Source: Muribaculaceae bacterium (lineage in GTDB: Bacteria > Bacteroidota > Bacteroidia > Bacteroidales > Muribaculaceae). From it: DNA of 64,000 bases. Shown piece by piece: positions 4,153 to 11,328 of this stretch. Every line of letters begins with the position of its first letter. The first letter of the stretch is position 1. The notes beneath the pieces were generated by a model. It saw only the letters and a list, made by a program, of their open reading frames with translations. It had not been told where the DNA came from and searched no databases. The stretch is from NCBI GenBank assembly GCA_910573745.1, contig CAJSYI010000004.1:62001-126000 (forward strand). Reading direction: 5' to 3'. A program made the position numbers and the translations under genes.

Positions 4153-5400
4153 ATGGCAAATTTAGAAAATCGCAAGAAACAGAATCCCAAGCTCCAGCAG
4201 TCGGAACTGAGCGACGGCCGTGCCAGCCTCTATCTTGAATATTATCTCGGCAGGACTGAATCGCCCGTGCTTGACGAGGACGGAAATCAGGTGTTCTACA
4301 CCGAGGGAGCAATGGCGGGAAAACCGAAATACAAAATCAAACATTCCCGCAAAAAAGAAAATCTCAACCTCTACATCTGGCTGCATCCCCGCAACCAACA
4401 GGAGCGGATGCAGAACAAGAACACTCTCGCCCTTGCAGAAAAGATACGCTTTGAGCGTGAGCAGTCGTTCTTGGAGGACAGGGAGGGTTATCGTCTCCGC
4501 AAGGATATGGATGAGGACTTTCTTGAGTTCTGCAAGGAGTTCATCAAATCCCCCTCGCTCACTAAATACACCCGCATAACGCTCAAGCATGGACTGCAAA
4601 AATTCATGGACTTTCTCTCCGTGACACCGAGATATTCCCTCTATAAGAAAAATTTGAAGATGACTCAGCTCACCGTTGACATGGTGGCGGCTTATGTGGA
4701 ATATCTGAAAGAGAACGGAACGGGCGACGGTCCGAAAATCTATTTCCGAATGTTCAAGCGCATGGTTACGGCTACCGTTGACAAAGACCTCATCAAGAAA
4801 AATCCTTGTCGTGGGTTCGTGCTGAAAAACGACAACATGACACTGCAAAAGGAGATTCTTCTGCCGGAGGAAATACAGCAGCTTGTGGCGACACATTTCG
4901 ATGGCGAGAAGGGAGAGATTCACCGTGCCTTCATCTTCGGTCTATATACCGGGGTGCGTTGGTGCGACACGAGCCAGCTCACATATCGAAATGTGGATTA
5001 CTCTACCAAGACGCTCCGATTTCAGCAGCAAAAGACGAAAGACCACAGCAGCCGGAGCTGGGTAATCGTTCCGCTGAATGACACCCTTATCCGTCTGATT
5101 GGAGAGCCGAGCGATGATGACTTTGATGAGCGCATATTCAAGCTGCCGCATTATAACATCTGCAACCTGTATCTTCGGAAATGGGTCAAGGAGGCCGGCA
5201 TCAAGAAGAAAATCACATGGCATTGTGCCCGGCACAGCTTCGCGGTGAATGTCCTCACCAAAGGAGCGAATATAAAAACGGTGTCAAGTCTGCTCGGACA
5301 CACCTCAATAAAGATGACGGAGCGATACCTCCATGTAGTTGACAGCCTGAAACAAGACGCCATCAACTCCCTTGGAGAAATCAACTATGCACCGATGTAA
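4153..5400 (+). CDS. tyrosine recombinase / integrase
   Basis: 415 residues, the usual length for Bacteroidales phage-type and ICE-type integrases. It has an N-terminal arm-binding region with an extended insert (to about 110), a SAM-like core-binding domain (about 125-225) and a C-terminal catalytic domain. The complete catalytic set is visible: Arg269 (TGVRWCD), Lys294 in the beta-hairpin (QQKTKD), His357 and Arg360 (HCARHSFA), His383 (LLGHTS) and the nucleophile Tyr392 (ERYLHV). It is expected to catalyse insertion and excision of the island between its attachment sites. It points away from the left end and toward the cargo, which runs the opposite way; its own terminator follows at 5420. 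No excisionase gene is recognised nearby. Confidence 0.95.
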   Translation: MANLENRKKQNPKLQQSELSDGRASLYLEYYLGRTESPVLDEDGNQVFYTEGAMAGKPKYKIKHSRKKENLNLYIWLHPRNQQERMQNKNTLALAEKIRFEREQSFLEDREGYRLRKDMDEDFLEFCKEFIKSPSLTKYTRITLKHGLQKFMDFLSVTPRYSLYKKNLKMTQLTVDMVAAYVEYLKENGTGDGPKIYFRMFKRMVTATVDKDLIKKNPCRGFVLKNDNMTLQKEILLPEEIQQLVATHFDGEKGEIHRAFIFGLYTGVRWCDTSQLTYRNVDYSTKTLRFQQQKTKDHSSRSWVIVPLNDTLIRLIGEPSDDDFDERIFKLPHYNICNLYLRKWVKEAGIKKKITWHCARHSFAVNVLTKGANIKTVSSLLGHTSIKMTERYLHVVDSLKQDAINSLGEINYAPM

Positions 5401-5612: not shown

Positions 5613-5946
5613 TTCTTGTGAATCACGTTGCGCATAAGAAAGTTAGCGAGCGAAACATGAGAGAGAAAAATGAGGAATTTGTTCTTCACAGATATCCGAA
5701 AATCGGAATTATATGGTTATTCCAGTCGTTTGGAAAGTCAAATGGGCATAATGTTATGGGAGGCAACGAGAAAAGAATGAGATTTAGCCAAGGACGATTA
5801 ATTAATTGAAACCCGCATGTATGATACCGCAATGGTATCGGATGGATAATGCGCAGCAATTTAGGAAATTAACAATGGCATTCTTGATTGCAAGACGGCT
5901 GTTAGTATGTAATGATGTAGTGACGTATTTATTTATGAATGTCATG

Positions 5947-6160
5947 ACGTAATGATGTCATTACGTGTTGATGTCCTTATGTATGATTGTATTGAAATAT
6001 TTTAGTCTGAATGACTGAGTGACTGAATGATTGGTCATTCAGATGATTGACTTAATGGGTGATTGAATGGTTGGTCATTCAAATGATTGGCTGATTGACT
6101 GACTGAGTGATTGAATGATTAGTCATTCAGATGATTGACTTAATGGCCGCTCAGATGATT
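5947..6160. repeat. iterated AT-rich dyads (iteron-like cluster)
   Basis: It opens with a perfect 20-bp palindrome (ACGTAATGA-TG-TCATTACGT, 5947-5966). Three degenerate copies of a unit beginning TGAATGATTGGTCATTCA follow, at 6024, 6064 and 6112. Each carries a TGAATGA...TCATTCA-type dyad and then ATGATTG; the first and third copies agree over 35 bp with one difference. Spacings are 40 and 48 bp. Such arrays are usually sites for a dedicated DNA-binding protein (arm-type integrase sites, replication or partition sites). The binder is unknown. Confidence 0.6.
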
Positions 6161-6226
6161 GTCCATAAAACCGACCTTATGGTTGATCAATGAGAGAGAA
6201 ATCCATTCAATCCACACTTTGATTTT

Positions 6227-6487
6227 TCAGCCATTATATTTTTCATCATACAATCTTGAAATCAGAGCTTCCAAGGCTGCTTTAGAGTAGTTGCCTCCCA
6301 AAGCCGAAATATTCGATTTTAGATTGTAACCTATCGAGTCCAATTTATCCCAATTGCTTTGAACCTCCTCAGGGGATTTTGCCGATTGAGCCGTTAGGAT
6401 TTTTAAGGCAGCTACAGCATTGTCTATTTGTTGTTCAAGAGTCATATTTTGTTCAAGAGTAATTTCCCAAATACCTTTATTTTCCAT
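6227..6487 (-). CDS. small hypothetical protein (86 aa), last gene of the cargo
   Basis: 86 residues, probably soluble and mostly helical. An N-terminal segment with two TLEQ motifs is followed by a helical region (AVAALKILTAQS) and a short charged C-terminus. I recognise no family. Its start codon lies within the arm of a perfect 15-bp inverted repeat (6483-6520), so translation could be gated by that hairpin. It follows the 41-aa ORF at 60 bp on the same strand. Codon use is AT-rich like the rest of the cargo. An internal Met at residue 15 (MTLEQQ) is a possible alternative start that would free the start from the hairpin. Confidence 0.55.
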   Translation of the reverse strand: MENKGIWEITLEQNMTLEQQIDNAVAALKILTAQSAKSPEEVQSNWDKLDSIGYNLKSNISALGGNYSKAALEALISRLYDEKYNG

Positions 6488-6520
6488 CTGACTGCGTTAG
6501 TTACGCAACGCAGTCAGATG
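6483..6520. repeat. perfect 15-bp inverted repeat over the start codon of the 86-aa ORF
   Basis: CCATCTGACTGCGTT (6483-6497) and its exact complement (6506-6520) are separated by 8 nt. On the minus strand the second arm ends in the ATG of the 86-aa ORF, so the RNA hairpin would hide the start. As DNA it could be an operator. No T-tract follows on either strand. Confidence 0.65.
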
Positions 6521-6546
6521 GTATCGCAAGCTTAATCACCAACTCG

Positions 6547-6672
6547 TTAAGAGTTATTGAGGGCCGCTTGCTGATTAGCTCCAAGATATTCAACTGAATC
6601 TATGAAATATTTCTTTGTCGTAATCAGTGAGTTGTATATCGTTTTATTTTTTTGCACCTCCGATTTATTCAT
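6547..6672 (-). CDS. very small ORF (41 aa) overlapping the end of the 282-aa gene
   Basis: The reading frame starts with an ATG inside the last codons of the upstream gene (8-base overlap of the ATGAATAA kind) and runs 41 codons to TAA. The predicted peptide begins MNKSEVQKNK, is basic at its start, and continues into a short amphipathic segment. The overlap suggests translational coupling in the same operon. No family is recognised, and a chance ORF in AT-rich DNA cannot be excluded. Confidence 0.35.
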   Translation of the reverse strand: MNKSEVQKNKTIYNSLITTKKYFIDSVEYLGANQQAALNNS

Positions 6673-7513
6673 AATTTAAATCAAATAATGAAGGCTCTTG
6701 TGGCTGTGCAAGAGGAGGGGTAAAGGTCCCGATTATTATAAATGGATTCTTGCTTATGAAATGATGCTTTAGTGTTGTGCCTAAAAAGAAATATAAATCC
6801 CTTTTCTTTGCGAACTCGTCCAAATATTTTTCTCTAACTTTTTTACAAGCATCAATTTCTGACATATGATATTCATTAACGTAACGACGATATAACGCGC
6901 AGACCTCCCAATCTTCAATCATTAAAGTTCTTTTTATGCCATCTTCGGATTGGAACACATAGGAGAACTCATAAGGGATTTTGTCAACTATTTTGAAAAG
7001 TTTTTTGACTTCTTTTTCTTCCTCGGTGTCAAATAAATTACCTTGGGCAGCTCTTGCATAGATTGCCTTTACCTTTTTTTCATCCCACTCACGTGCACAA
7101 GGTTTCCATATGAAATCAATGACCACAGATGGTTTAAACACAGCTAAAGATGTACCTATTGCACGATTCTTTGCTTCCTGAATAAGCTCTGACATATTAG
7201 TATAAACTTTTGTCAAAGCAAATTTCTTTCTCTCGGCCCATCCATTTTTAGTACTTATAACTTCTCCAAGAGTTATGTCTTCGTAGTCGTAAGGCCTAAA
7301 ACTTTCGTTTCTTGGGTCGGAGTCATTTTTCACTAACTCAAGTTCAATCCATTGCCACTTTTTATAGCGAGTATCTAATTTCCTAAAAGGTACAGGATAA
7401 ACTCTAATCCACGAACCATCTTCTAAAAATCCCGCAGTGCATACAAGCTCATCATATTTTTGGGACAAGGTTGGATAAGTCTTTACAGTTACAAGAACTT
7501 TCGTTTTTGCCAT
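6665..7513 (-). CDS. conserved-looking protein of unknown function in the DUF488 cassette
   Basis: 282 residues, soluble. The N-terminus (VLVTVKTYPTLSQKYDELVC, then GFLEDGSWIRVYPVPFRKL) looks like a compact beta-rich domain, possibly of PUA/ASCH kind, but this is a guess. The middle is helical and charged, and the C-terminus ends in a flexible tail closing with SLFDLNYE. Two short motifs resemble sliding-clamp binding peptides: QGNLF at residues 157-161 and QEPSLFDL near the end. It starts 4 bp after the stop of the DUF488 gene, so the two are almost certainly cotranscribed and probably act together. I do not recognise the family and assign no function. Confidence 0.8.
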   Translation of the reverse strand: MAKTKVLVTVKTYPTLSQKYDELVCTAGFLEDGSWIRVYPVPFRKLDTRYKKWQWIELELVKNDSDPRNESFRPYDYEDITLGEVISTKNGWAERKKFALTKVYTNMSELIQEAKNRAIGTSLAVFKPSVVIDFIWKPCAREWDEKKVKAIYARAAQGNLFDTEEEKEVKKLFKIVDKIPYEFSYVFQSEDGIKRTLMIEDWEVCALYRRYVNEYHMSEIDACKKVREKYLDEFAKKRDLYFFLGTTLKHHFISKNPFIIIGTFTPPLAQPQEPSLFDLNYE

Positions 7514-7517
7514 AACT

Positions 7518-8423
7518 TCAAAGATTTAAGAGTGTGTAATTACATTGAGGGATTGTCATTAATCTTTTTGCAATCCTACTTCTATGGCATTGCAGCGGAT
7601 TATGCTCAAAACAAGTTAATGCTATCCTTTTATCATTTTGGAGCAATGTAAAAAGATGATTCAACTCATTTCTTGCATACATAAGAGTAGTTATTTCATA
7701 ATCATCAAACAATGCATCATAATCTGATTGATTCTTCAAATCCTTACGCTTTTCGGAGATTATGCCGAGATTTGGAATGTGTTCATATCTTATTCCAGCG
7801 CCCTCACATGCTTTAGCTAATTGGTTTTTTGAAAATCCGAACTTCTGACTATATGCATTTTTTCTTACATCACAAAGAACACGTACGTCGTTTATTAACA
7901 AGGTTACAATGTATTGTTCTAATGATAGTCCCTCGTAGCCTATGGTCATTAGCGATAATTCGTCTTTGTGTGGACGTTGGTTTATAACATGCGAATATTC
8001 AGTCTTTGATAATAAATCCTTCGCCATCTTACTGTTGATTGCAAAGAAGGGATAATTTTGATATGTATATCTAATCAATTCATTTATAGGCATCTTAGCA
8101 AACCGCTTAATAATTCGCAATATCACATTGTAATCCGTTTCATCTATTAATTTGCTAAGTTTTAAATCATTTCTTGCGATTTTGTATTTATGACTCGTTC
8201 CTTCCTCATCTTCACATAGCAAGTAGCCATCTTTAGTAAGGTTTCTTAAATCTTGACTTAACTGCATAGAATAACAGCCATATTTATATGGCATAAAGTC
8301 ATAGACCCTCTCCTCTTGGTTATCTGTCAAGAGGAACACGAGTTTTTGTATTTGTATGCTTGACATCCAATCACCTAATTGCTCCATTAGAGCTGCCAAA
8401 CATTTTTCTCGATAAAATCGCAT
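7518..8423 (-). CDS. DUF488 protein with N-terminal Panacea/DUF4065-like domain
   Basis: 301 residues in two parts. Residues 1 to about 95 (IQIQKLVFLLT, YDFMPYKYGCYSMQL, LTKDGYL) look like the Panacea/SocA (DUF4065) fold found in antitoxins and toxin-antitoxin-like partners. Residues about 160-301 are a DUF488 domain: TIGYEGLSLEQYI, then CDVRKNAYSQKFGF, and the family's closing motif CFEHNPLQCHR (Cys at about 279). DUF488 proteins are small, biochemically undefined and frequent in defence and stress loci. The gene sits 71 bp downstream of the methylase and 4 bp upstream of the 282-aa gene on the same strand. Panacea assignment is by pattern only. Confidence 0.8.
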   Translation of the reverse strand: MRFYREKCLAALMEQLGDWMSSIQIQKLVFLLTDNQEERVYDFMPYKYGCYSMQLSQDLRNLTKDGYLLCEDEEGTSHKYKIARNDLKLSKLIDETDYNVILRIIKRFAKMPINELIRYTYQNYPFFAINSKMAKDLLSKTEYSHVINQRPHKDELSLMTIGYEGLSLEQYIVTLLINDVRVLCDVRKNAYSQKFGFSKNQLAKACEGAGIRYEHIPNLGIISEKRKDLKNQSDYDALFDDYEITTLMYARNELNHLFTLLQNDKRIALTCFEHNPLQCHRSRIAKRLMTIPQCNYTLLNL

Positions 8424-8494
8424 TGTATTTATAATTCTATGAAAATATAACGCATTCTTGCCATTAAAATTTTAGTACGTTGTCCATAACGATT

Positions 8495-10789
8495 TTACTT
8501 TAAGAATTCATACTGAAACAATACTGGCACAATTTCTTGGTTATAATAGTCTTTAACCATACTTGCCAAAGTTTTAATGTTTCCGTTGAGACTGGGATAT
8601 TTAATAATCCGTTCACCTGTCTCTACATCATTAATGACCTTGTTCAACTCAAATCGAATTTGGTATAAACCATAATTTATGGAGTTATCGTATTCTTCCG
8701 TTGATTTGGCATCAACAAGAACCTTTTCCCATTGTTGGATAAGTCTATGTTCTGTATCATTACATTGCAACGCAGTGATGTCTTGCGAAGCTAACGTTTC
8801 TCCGTTTGTTGTATCTAAAGTAAGTTGATTAACATACTCTCTGCCATCGGAACCAACGAAAGACCGCATATGGTTTTGAGGCTCCAATACGGTGAAAAGC
8901 AAACATTTCAGTAAAAATTGATTCAATGTGCCATTTGCCACATCGTTTTTGAAACGTTCGCAACCATCAGCTGATTTCATGATGCGGGCACGCTCTGTCC
9001 ATTCCCGATTATAGGTTATGTAACGGCTTGCCGCAAACATTGGAAGTTTCTCCAGATAATTGTCTTTTCTAAGATAAAATCCGTTACCATCATATCTTGC
9101 GGCGGTCAAAAGGCTTGACATATTGTCTGGATTGTCAAATCCGCTGCTATATACTGCCATATAGCCAATAATATTGGGATTTAATATTGGCTTTACGCGA
9201 ATTGAATTGGTAGATGTTTTTTCAGTACCGTTCTTTTCACACAGTACGCTACCAGCTATATCATCGGAGAAACGTCTCTTGTCAAAATACTTTTGGCTAT
9301 ATGTGGAATGAATTTTATCCACGTCAAGAACTCTTGATGAGATTAACTCATTATCGACAATATCAAAAGCATCCAACTGAAGTTTTTCAGTTACGGCATC
9401 ATCTTCATTACTCCAAAGAGCGCACATAATGCACGCCTGAATATTGGTATGGAAATGCTTTCGATTAAACGCAAAACCACGGATAAATCTCTTGTTAATT
9501 AAATGTTGGGCTTTCCAATATTTAACGGGAGAATAGACAATATAACTATCCGTATTCTGACGTAAATAATATTTGAACGCTGACCAAATAAATGCATTAC
9601 CTAAATCATTAGTGGCCGTCCCGGAAATCTCTTTTTTCATTTCTTCGACCACAAACGACTTCTTCCATGCAGAACTATTCTTCCCAGCACCTTGTTTTTG
9701 ATGTTCTATTGAGGTAGTATCTGCATAAGGAGGATTTTCAAAGAGTATGATGGTACAGTTTTGGTTGTTAATGTACTGGCCAATTATCTCATTTTCAATA
9801 TACTCTTTACTCAATGCATCCGCTCCACGAACTTTGCCTTGATTAAAAGAATCTTCCCTTTCGGTGGGAGGAATGATGTGTCTAACTTTATCGCCAAGTA
9901 CCTCCAACAAGACTTTATATTCATAATATTCCAGTGTTGATACGATGGTATGGGAAAGTTCTTCTTTGGTCATCAACCTTTCCAAATTACCTGTACCAGC
10001 ACATCTGTCTATTATGACATAGTCATTGCCCTGGGGAACTCTGCGAATAGCATCCCTTACTAATTCAAGCGATTTCTTAGCATAAAGTTCATGGGTATAA
10101 AATGCTCCAAGGTCTTTCTTCTGAAGAAAATCATTGAGACGATCCATAAGATAACGGAATCTCTCGTTTGATTTTTTCTCATAAGGATAAATGAACTCCA
10201 CGAATTTTGTCGGGCGCCTAATTTCTCCAACAATTTGTATTCGACCGGTGGTATCACCTATAAAATCAGATTTTGTTGCTGACGAATTTTCGCTATAGTA
10301 TCGAGTAGCCCATCCAACAATACAATTCTCGTCAATATGAATCTTGGTGTATTCTTTGGTTCGGAGAATTCCAATTAATTTTTCTTCGTCGGTTGAAGAA
10401 TCTAAGTTCAATATTTCAAGCGGTTGTCCACACTCAAATGCCCTGTTATCTCTTGATGCACCTCCTATGTAAACTGATTCAATATTGGAGAGATAATCCT
10501 GACTGCTATAGATATATGCTTTATTATCATTCAATGAAACTAAAATTATATTCCGGGGGATTGCTTTCCCTTTTATTCTCATCGATGACAGATATTTTAC
10601 AGCTTGGAATAAAACAGAATTCAAACTATCTATGTGGACCTTGAACTCAACTATATTACCGTTTACAACGCCATCACTATAATCATTCTGAATATTGGAA
10701 ATATCAAGAGTCCTATCTACTCTCGGAAGATAGGTTGTAAAGAAATCATGTTGACCCTCCAATTCGTTAGTATAGGTTCTTTGACTCAT
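8495..10789 (-). CDS. single-chain restriction-modification-like protein (RecB-type nuclease plus Eco57I-like N6-adenine methylase)
   Basis: 764 residues. N-terminal nuclease signature: Asp39, Glu48-Phe-Lys50 (NIVEFKV) and Gln62-x3-Tyr66 (QAVKY), matching a PD-(D/E)XK fold with the QxxxY motif typical of RecB and HsdR nucleases. A methylase domain follows, with motif I DRCAGTGN at 261-268 (AdoMet binding) and catalytic NPPY at 352-355. A long C-terminal region, probably target recognition, completes it. This architecture is that of type IIG/Eco57I-like enzymes, which modify and cut with one chain; no separate specificity or nuclease gene is nearby. It is the first gene of the leftward cargo operon and has an AT-rich composition. 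Activity of the nuclease part is inferred from motifs only. Confidence 0.85.
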   Translation of the reverse strand: MSQRTYTNELEGQHDFFTTYLPRVDRTLDISNIQNDYSDGVVNGNIVEFKVHIDSLNSVLFQAVKYLSSMRIKGKAIPRNIILVSLNDNKAYIYSSQDYLSNIESVYIGGASRDNRAFECGQPLEILNLDSSTDEEKLIGILRTKEYTKIHIDENCIVGWATRYYSENSSATKSDFIGDTTGRIQIVGEIRRPTKFVEFIYPYEKKSNERFRYLMDRLNDFLQKKDLGAFYTHELYAKKSLELVRDAIRRVPQGNDYVIIDRCAGTGNLERLMTKEELSHTIVSTLEYYEYKVLLEVLGDKVRHIIPPTEREDSFNQGKVRGADALSKEYIENEIIGQYINNQNCTIILFENPPYADTTSIEHQKQGAGKNSSAWKKSFVVEEMKKEISGTATNDLGNAFIWSAFKYYLRQNTDSYIVYSPVKYWKAQHLINKRFIRGFAFNRKHFHTNIQACIMCALWSNEDDAVTEKLQLDAFDIVDNELISSRVLDVDKIHSTYSQKYFDKRRFSDDIAGSVLCEKNGTEKTSTNSIRVKPILNPNIIGYMAVYSSGFDNPDNMSSLLTAARYDGNGFYLRKDNYLEKLPMFAASRYITYNREWTERARIMKSADGCERFKNDVANGTLNQFLLKCLLFTVLEPQNHMRSFVGSDGREYVNQLTLDTTNGETLASQDITALQCNDTEHRLIQQWEKVLVDAKSTEEYDNSINYGLYQIRFELNKVINDVETGERIIKYPSLNGNIKTLASMVKDYYNQEIVPVLFQYEFLK

Positions 10790-10814
10790 GATATTGATAG
10801 CTCTTGTAGTTTGA

Positions 10815-10873
10815 AAGCTCCAACGTAGCTATGCGAGGCCGACCAAAGCCTTTAAGCGACTACGTTGGAGCTT
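10815..10873. repeat. 14-bp perfect inverted repeat in the leader of the methylase gene
   Basis: AAGCTCCAACGTAG (10815-10828) and its exact complement (10860-10873) enclose 31 nt. The repeat starts 26 bp upstream of the methylase ATG, between it and the predicted promoter, so it may be an operator or an RNA structure limiting expression. Apart from this repeat, the promoter and the end repeats, I see no gene in 10790-11318. Confidence 0.6.
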
Positions 10874-10949
10874 CCAATGTTTTGTTTACGGCTTACGCCG
10901 TTATGTCGTTGTGATATTCTTGGCCATTTCGCATCAAGTGCTTAGACTG

Positions 10950-10957
10950 CAAAGTTA
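10950..10957 (-). promoter_or_regulatory. -7 element of the cargo operon
   Basis: On the minus strand the sequence reads TAACTTTG, a perfect TAnnTTTG match, about 160 bp before the methylase start. No convincing -33 TTTG is present. The resulting leader would contain the 14-bp inverted repeat. Confidence 0.45.
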
Positions 10958-11315: not shown

Positions 11316-11328
11316 AATTTACCAGATT
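11316..11328. repeat. candidate attR core (13-bp direct repeat, right copy)
   Basis: AATTTACCAGATT is identical to 3908-3920. On the minus strand it reads through the last codons (Ile-Trp-stop) of the M13 peptidase gene, the kind of conserved gene end used by many tyrosine recombinases. Confidence 0.4.

Follow-up and report, generated by a model that had tools for sequence, protein, structure and literature searches.

A PDC-M19 gene pair on a Muribaculaceae island joins a DUF488 protein to a predicted OB-fold protein with sliding-clamp-type motifs

Which genes in a short leftward run behind an integrase belong together, and what might they do? The question was addressed for a 64,000-nucleotide stretch, the window, of contig CAJSYI010000004.1 from the Muribaculaceae bacterium assembly GCA_910573745.1. 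Three substantial genes are read leftward here, encoding a 764-residue nuclease/methylase-like protein, a 301-residue DUF488 protein and a 282-residue protein, followed by open reading frames (ORFs) of 41 and 86 residues. The initial annotation had taken all five as one unit of unnamed composition. In our analysis, the functional unit is a two-gene cassette made up of the DUF488 gene (M19A) and the 282-residue gene (M19B). M19B is predicted to adopt an oligonucleotide/oligosaccharide-binding (OB) fold and, judging from two short motifs, probably docks on the sliding clamp of the replication machinery.

A conserved pair and its distribution

The two proteins were matched over nearly their full length by PADLOC models, namely the DUF488 protein by PDC-M19A (E 2.4e-106) and the 282-residue protein by PDC-M19B (E 4.1e-112), and their genes are adjacent. 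The composition therefore has a name, PDC-M19, which is that of an uncharacterised candidate. PDC entries are defence candidates, most of them without experimental validation (PMC12988326, PMC11514479), and a literature search returned no paper naming PDC-M19. The features of the pair are as follows.

6665–7513, minus strand: M19B, 282 residues, predicted OB-fold protein and putative clamp-docked effector (PADLOC PDC-M19B, model, Foldseek)
6683–6700, minus strand: C-terminal motif QEPSLF of M19B, residues 272–277, degenerate; QPSLF in the relative L034
7031–7045, minus strand: internal motif QGNLF of M19B, residues 157–161; Q..[LIM]F in homologues
7518–8423, minus strand: M19A, 301 residues, DUF488 plus an N-terminal DarG-C-terminal/Panacea-like domain (PADLOC, Pfam, model, DarG match)
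7581–7613, minus strand: DUF488 motif C271-x-E273...C279-H280-R281 of M19A, putative active site, invariant in 77 sequences
7974–8423, minus strand: N-terminal domain of M19A, about residues 1–150, with a fold like the DarG C-terminal domain and Panacea

Across 84,980 species genomes, at least 570 M19B relatives were found, and the best 80 loci were kept for neighbourhood counts. These are the nearest relatives, nearly all from Bacteroidota, and some lie on short contigs, such that the flanks reach 10 kb in part only. M19A adjoined M19B in all 80 and preceded it in 79, the intergenic distance ranging from −17 to +12 bp across the kept loci save for a single gap of 46 bp. No homologue of the 764-residue methylase was found at any of the 80 pair-bearing loci, and none of the 41- or 86-residue ORF, so that the latter two were ruled out as members of the cassette. 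The five-ORF unit thus reduces to the pair, which occurs without this methylase at every locus sampled and corresponds to an entry already catalogued.

The distribution of the pair is patchy, with about 5% of the sampled Bacteroidota genomes and 1 of 297 in its own family, that of the window only, and this is the pattern of a mobile cassette. The closest relative is a Muribaculaceae metagenome-assembled genome (L034), whose pair is 82% identical. Beyond Bacteroidota, the pair was found in Gordonia phages and on cyanobacterial, proteobacterial, actinobacterial and Sulfolobales plasmids, and it was present on the majority of the plasmid and phage records examined, with the genes co-directional or convergent. 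The genes stood together in 26 of the 27 viral-contig loci, the exception lying at a contig edge; in this search, a single window protein as the query gave no match, and an alignment query did. Full-length M19A-type proteins with no M19B detectable alongside were seen at two loci (L180, 1489–2382; L189, 1501–2388). In a Gordonia phage (L008, 5024–7271), M19B abuts an annotated immunity repressor gene, with a convergent DUF488 gene and an integrase nearby, and it is possible that M19 takes part in superinfection exclusion in these phages.

Motifs and predicted folds

The internal motif of M19B, Q..[LIM]F, was present in 98 of the 103 intact homologues (mean 2.1 and maximum 7 after shuffling, in counts over related sequences). 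Within the last 16 residues, the same pattern was strictly kept in 72 of them, as compared with a mean of 2.7 and a maximum of 8 in 1000 shuffles, and many of the remaining homologues end in hexapeptide-like forms (QLELQF, QLSLSF, QLKLNF) or in QxSLL, such as QGSLL. The C-terminal motif occurred at the C-terminus of 0 of 109 M19A proteins and of 6 of 814 flanking ORFs and is therefore no general property of the proteins encoded here. The published consensus for binding to the bacterial beta clamp is QL(S/D)LF, and that of the PCNA box is Qxx[I/L]xxFF (PMC9690074). The host's own DnaE carries QASLF. Sulfolobales hosts use PCNA, and in two of their plasmid homologues the aligned internal place reads QATLDQYI or QATLEQYI, with NVKLDDFI or NVSFDKFI at the C-terminus. 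These segments appear close to the PCNA-box consensus; the two proteins are 79% identical, count as one observation and are the sole source for motifs of PCNA type. On the strength of these patterns, we consider docking of M19B on the sliding clamp probable.

The AlphaFold2 model of M19B has a predicted local distance difference test (pLDDT) score of 89.9, with both motif segments among its less confident parts. Its best Foldseek matches in the PDB were CST, a chain of a nucleotide excision repair complex, the RPA-like Teb1 and TEBP (E 1.3e-4 to 4e-3), and the best viral matches, in BFVD, were baculovirus LEF-3 proteins (E 7.2e-5), which bind single-stranded DNA (ssDNA). The top matches in both libraries are multi-OB proteins, and an OB fold is thus predicted for M19B, with the closest resemblance to ssDNA-binding proteins. 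Two other assignments were set aside, namely an iota-carbonic anhydrase-like protein (phmmer E 4e-4 to 7c5x), for which the match was short and unsupported by profile or fold, and herpesvirus U62/UL91 (Pfam E 0.008), which did not pass the cut-off.

For M19A, the DUF488 domain recognized in the initial annotation is a firm match (82.7 bits versus a Pfam cut-off of 22.2; model pLDDT 94.2), and this half gave weak hints of a phosphatase-like fold from Foldseek and a sub-threshold Pfam match. The Panacea-like label of the N-terminal half is sub-threshold by sequence. In fold, this half matches the C-terminal domain of DarG in the DarTG complex 7yk3 (Foldseek E 7.4e-4, probability 1.00), whereas the Panacea family (DUF4065, PF13274) scored 16.3 bits and did not reach the Pfam gathering score of 25.7. 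Nor was the Panacea GPV signature, as defined in PMC8832971, found in M19A, in which the candidate place reads YGCYS with G49 and S52 invariant.

What stays constant in the partner from lineage to lineage is DUF488; its N-terminal companion is exchangeable, being DarG-like in Bacteroidota, an XRE helix-turn-helix (HTH) domain in Streptomyces, ParB in Saccharolobus, or none. Companions of this antitoxin- or regulator-like kind suggest that M19A does the restraining in the pair. In Sulfolobales, the gene upstream of M19B encodes a ParB–DUF488 fusion. Binding of cytidine triphosphate in vitro is reported for an archaeal fusion protein with a ParB fold, described as DUF488-HTH (PMC12704722). On a Saccharolobus plasmid (L114, 3939–6355), a ParB–HTH–DUF488 fusion and M19B are followed by a small protein in which a stretch reading I-E-I-D...E-x-K looks PD-(D/E)xK-like by eye.

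Possible action of the pair

We propose that M19 would be a mobile conflict module, which in the window sits on an island with an integrase and is preceded by an unrelated gene of restriction–modification (R-M) type. M19B, as a nucleic-acid-binding OB-fold protein, would dock through its two motifs on the sliding clamp, which is the beta clamp in bacteria and PCNA in archaea, while its OB domains contact nucleic acid at the fork; once released, it would block or poison replication forks, whether those of an invader or those of the infected cell itself. M19A, with its exchangeable antitoxin- or DNA-binding-type N-terminal domain, would restrain M19B and would probably sense the trigger. To the computed pairing, spread, clamp-like motifs, OB-fold similarity and domain swapping, this scheme would add clamp binding itself, a replication block, toxicity of M19B, antitoxicity of M19A and a role in defence. 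We hold the full scheme, from clamp docking and replication block to restraint by M19A, with somewhat less than even confidence. More tentative still is its extension to M19 at large, as fork-targeting conflict modules of bacteria and archaea in which a clamp-held effector of the OB-fold ssDNA-binding type, with motifs that switched from beta-clamp to PCNA binding on passage between domains of life, is joined to a DUF488 partner with a lineage-swapped regulatory domain.

The decay of the two genes bears on their roles. Among 395 Bacteroidota genomes, 22 had a full-length M19A, and M19B was intact in 14 of these and undetected in 2; in the other 6 it was broken, through about five events. Outside this sample, L068 and L119 are loci with M19A intact and M19B broken. 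An intact M19B lacking the DUF488 gene was found in none of the 395 genomes. The pattern fits a costly M19B, in counts that are small and that include some breaks which may be assembly errors.

Several points weigh against the proposed scheme. As for the fold, the template modelling (TM) scores of M19B to OB proteins are low (~0.3), so the matches support OB domains, not specific orthology, and the OB reading rests on Foldseek E values of about 1e-4 together with the consistent identity of the matches. As for the motifs, the window's own C-terminal copy is QEPSLF, that is, EPSLF and not Q..LF, conservation of short motifs can have other causes, and the relatedness of the homologues means that the shuffle counts cannot be taken as probabilities. 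As for the partner, Panacea membership of M19A stays below threshold, L106 has a frameshifted M19A with M19B intact, and the DUF488 gene of pSOG2 is a C-terminal remnant beside an intact M19B, both of which count against a strict antitoxin role. Finally, gene order is convergent in some lineages, which is unusual for toxin–antitoxin pairs, and the literature search returned no experiment on the PDC-M19 family.

The roles may also be reversed, with M19A as the effector, its DUF488 enzyme acting on DNA, nucleotides or protein, and M19B as a targeting subunit that finds replicating foreign DNA through the clamp and ssDNA. The anatomy of the pair fits this arrangement almost as well as the proposed scheme, and the invariance of C271, E273, C279, H280 and R281, the hints of a phosphatase-like fold and the constancy of DUF488 across lineages speak for it. 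We nevertheless think it rather unlikely, as M19B is lost or broken more often than M19A, whereas a costly enzyme paired with a passive targeting subunit should show the reverse, and the N-terminal domains attached to DUF488 are of antitoxin or regulator type.

A further alternative starts from the neighbourhood. The nearest genes of the pair include many components of type I, IIG, ISP and III systems, more than the distal genes of the same loci do, with R-M-like genes accounting for 37 of 359 genes within 3 kb versus 4 of 292 at distances above 5 kb. The resulting odds ratio of 8.3 is inflated, as some of the seeds used for detection came from the near genes themselves, but the PADLOC counts show the same trend. 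The order in L034 (509–8879) is that of a type I operon, hsdM-hsdS-M19A-M19B-hsdR, in which the genes overlap and hsdR overlaps the end of M19B, and in the window the pair comes after the nuclease-methylase gene. M19 could on these grounds be an R-M accessory at the fork that, for example, limits self-restriction of new DNA or couples restriction to replication. An R-M-like gene lies within three genes of the pair in 21 of the 80 loci, about a quarter, but some 59 have none at that distance, the partner systems are of several unrelated types, and phages and small archaeal plasmids have the pair without an R-M gene, all of which makes this alternative improbable.

The remaining reading, one dedicated DNA-modification or defence system of the methylase, DUF488 and 282-residue genes, has in its favour a common strand, a single AT-rich island and the 71-bp gap between methylase and M19A, but it is largely refuted and in our estimate very improbable, given the methylase-free loci described above, a solitary methylase homologue on a 9-kb Limosilactobacillus plasmid and the type I operon around the 82%-identical pair of L034. 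What persists of the earlier proposal is a defence-like role as such, which is reasonable in view of the PADLOC candidate match, the R-M neighbourhood and the occurrence on plasmids, phages and islands; its tie to this methylase does not hold.

Setting on the island and relation to known systems

The surroundings of the pair comprise the following features.

4153–5400, plus strand: tyrosine integrase of the island (Pfam Phage_integrase, 72.6 bits)
6227–6487, minus strand: 86-residue ORF, not conserved
6547–6672, minus strand: 41-residue ORF, overlapping M19B by 8 bases, not conserved and probably not a gene
8495–10789, minus strand: single-chain nuclease/N6-methylase-like protein, 764 residues (motifs in the sequence)
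10950–10957, minus strand: possible Bacteroidales −7 element (TAACTTTG) upstream of the methylase, read in the sequence

The ORF coordinates and strand, the 4-bp spacing of M19A and M19B and the 8-base overlap were all correct in the initial annotation, as was the AT-rich setting behind an integrase, with a G+C fraction of 0.35–0.37 in the cassette block versus about 0.50 on both sides. Its view of the 764-residue protein as a single-chain nuclease/N6-adenine methylase was borne out in part, in that the methylase motifs GTGNL and NPPY and an E-x-K were read by eye, whereas no Pfam, NCBIfam or PADLOC model, including those for Eco57I, N6_Mtase and IIG, matched at E ≤ 1. Homologues with 42–44% identity are found on Limosilactobacillus plasmids, of which the 9-kb one is without the pair, and 4 of 394 other Bacteroidota genomes gave weak partial matches and nothing stronger. 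The family, with members in the window (8495–10789), L170 (5807–8272) and L171 (4974–7438), looks like an unclassified single-chain restriction enzyme. The window gene probably encodes an R-M enzyme and is best read as an interchangeable R-M-type neighbour outside the conserved pair.

The candidate −7 element is a possible operon promoter. Between it and the methylase start lies an inverted repeat (10811–10877; 18-nt arms, 94% complementary, 31 nt apart), which could be an operator or a leader hairpin. A perfect 15-nt inverted repeat (6484–6521) spans the start codon of the 86-residue ORF; no T-run comes after it, and it is therefore not a classic terminator. Non-coding, imperfect tandem repeats occupy 5900–6170, between integrase and cassette, in the form of four 71-nt copies (spacing 40, 8, 40) with TGATTGAATGATTGGTCATTC-like units. 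Relatives align exactly as far as the peptidase stop at 11319 and none past it, so the right edge of the island lies at or before that position; a search for attachment repeats of the island gave no convincing pair.

Compared with the PADLOC entry PDC-M19, a catalogue entry without a described function, the window pair differs in nothing of kind. In SocAB of Caulobacter, the toxin SocB binds the beta clamp, and SocA, a Panacea protein, serves as an adaptor to ClpXP (PMC8832971, PMC9690074, PMC12795458). By analogy, M19 would share a clamp-binding motif in one protein (in M19, a sequence motif across the family), a Panacea/DarG-type fold in the partner and the same proposed effect. M19A, however, carries DUF488, scores below the Panacea cut-off and has no GPV, so membership in a SocAB-type family fails despite the similar mode of action proposed; M19B, OB-fold-like with two motifs, is set apart from SocB by description. 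RipAB, of the Rosmer family in Streptococcus pneumoniae, is likewise a two-gene module with a toxin acting on the clamp, DnaN (PMC12795458), as proposed for M19B. Its RipB is described as ImmA-like with a regulator domain, not DUF488, and RipA was compared with M19B by description. DarTG shares with M19 the fold of the DarG C-terminal domain, seen in the Mycobacterium tuberculosis complex 7yk3 and in the N-terminal domain of M19A, but the DarG equivalog model gave 25.1 bits versus a cut-off of 250, M19A has DUF488 in second place, and M19B showed no match to DarT. To ssDNA-binding OB proteins of the RPA, CST and LEF-3 type, M19B shows an OB-fold-like similarity by Foldseek in two libraries (PDB and BFVD); it differs in having no sequence similarity to them, a low TM-score and added clamp motifs. 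The pair itself being already catalogued, what is new here is the predicted OB fold of M19B and its two clamp-type motifs.

Very few prokaryotic toxins are known to act on the sliding clamp, two of which are named in PMC12795458. If the proposed action is true, clamp targeting would be a common strategy, with a cassette that reaches from about 5% of the Bacteroidota genomes sampled to archaea, cyanobacteria, proteobacteria and actinobacteria, as well as to plasmids and phages. An anonymous PADLOC entry and an uncharacterised DUF488 protein would thereby be turned into a testable hypothesis, with two point-mutable motifs, one binding partner and one predicted phenotype.

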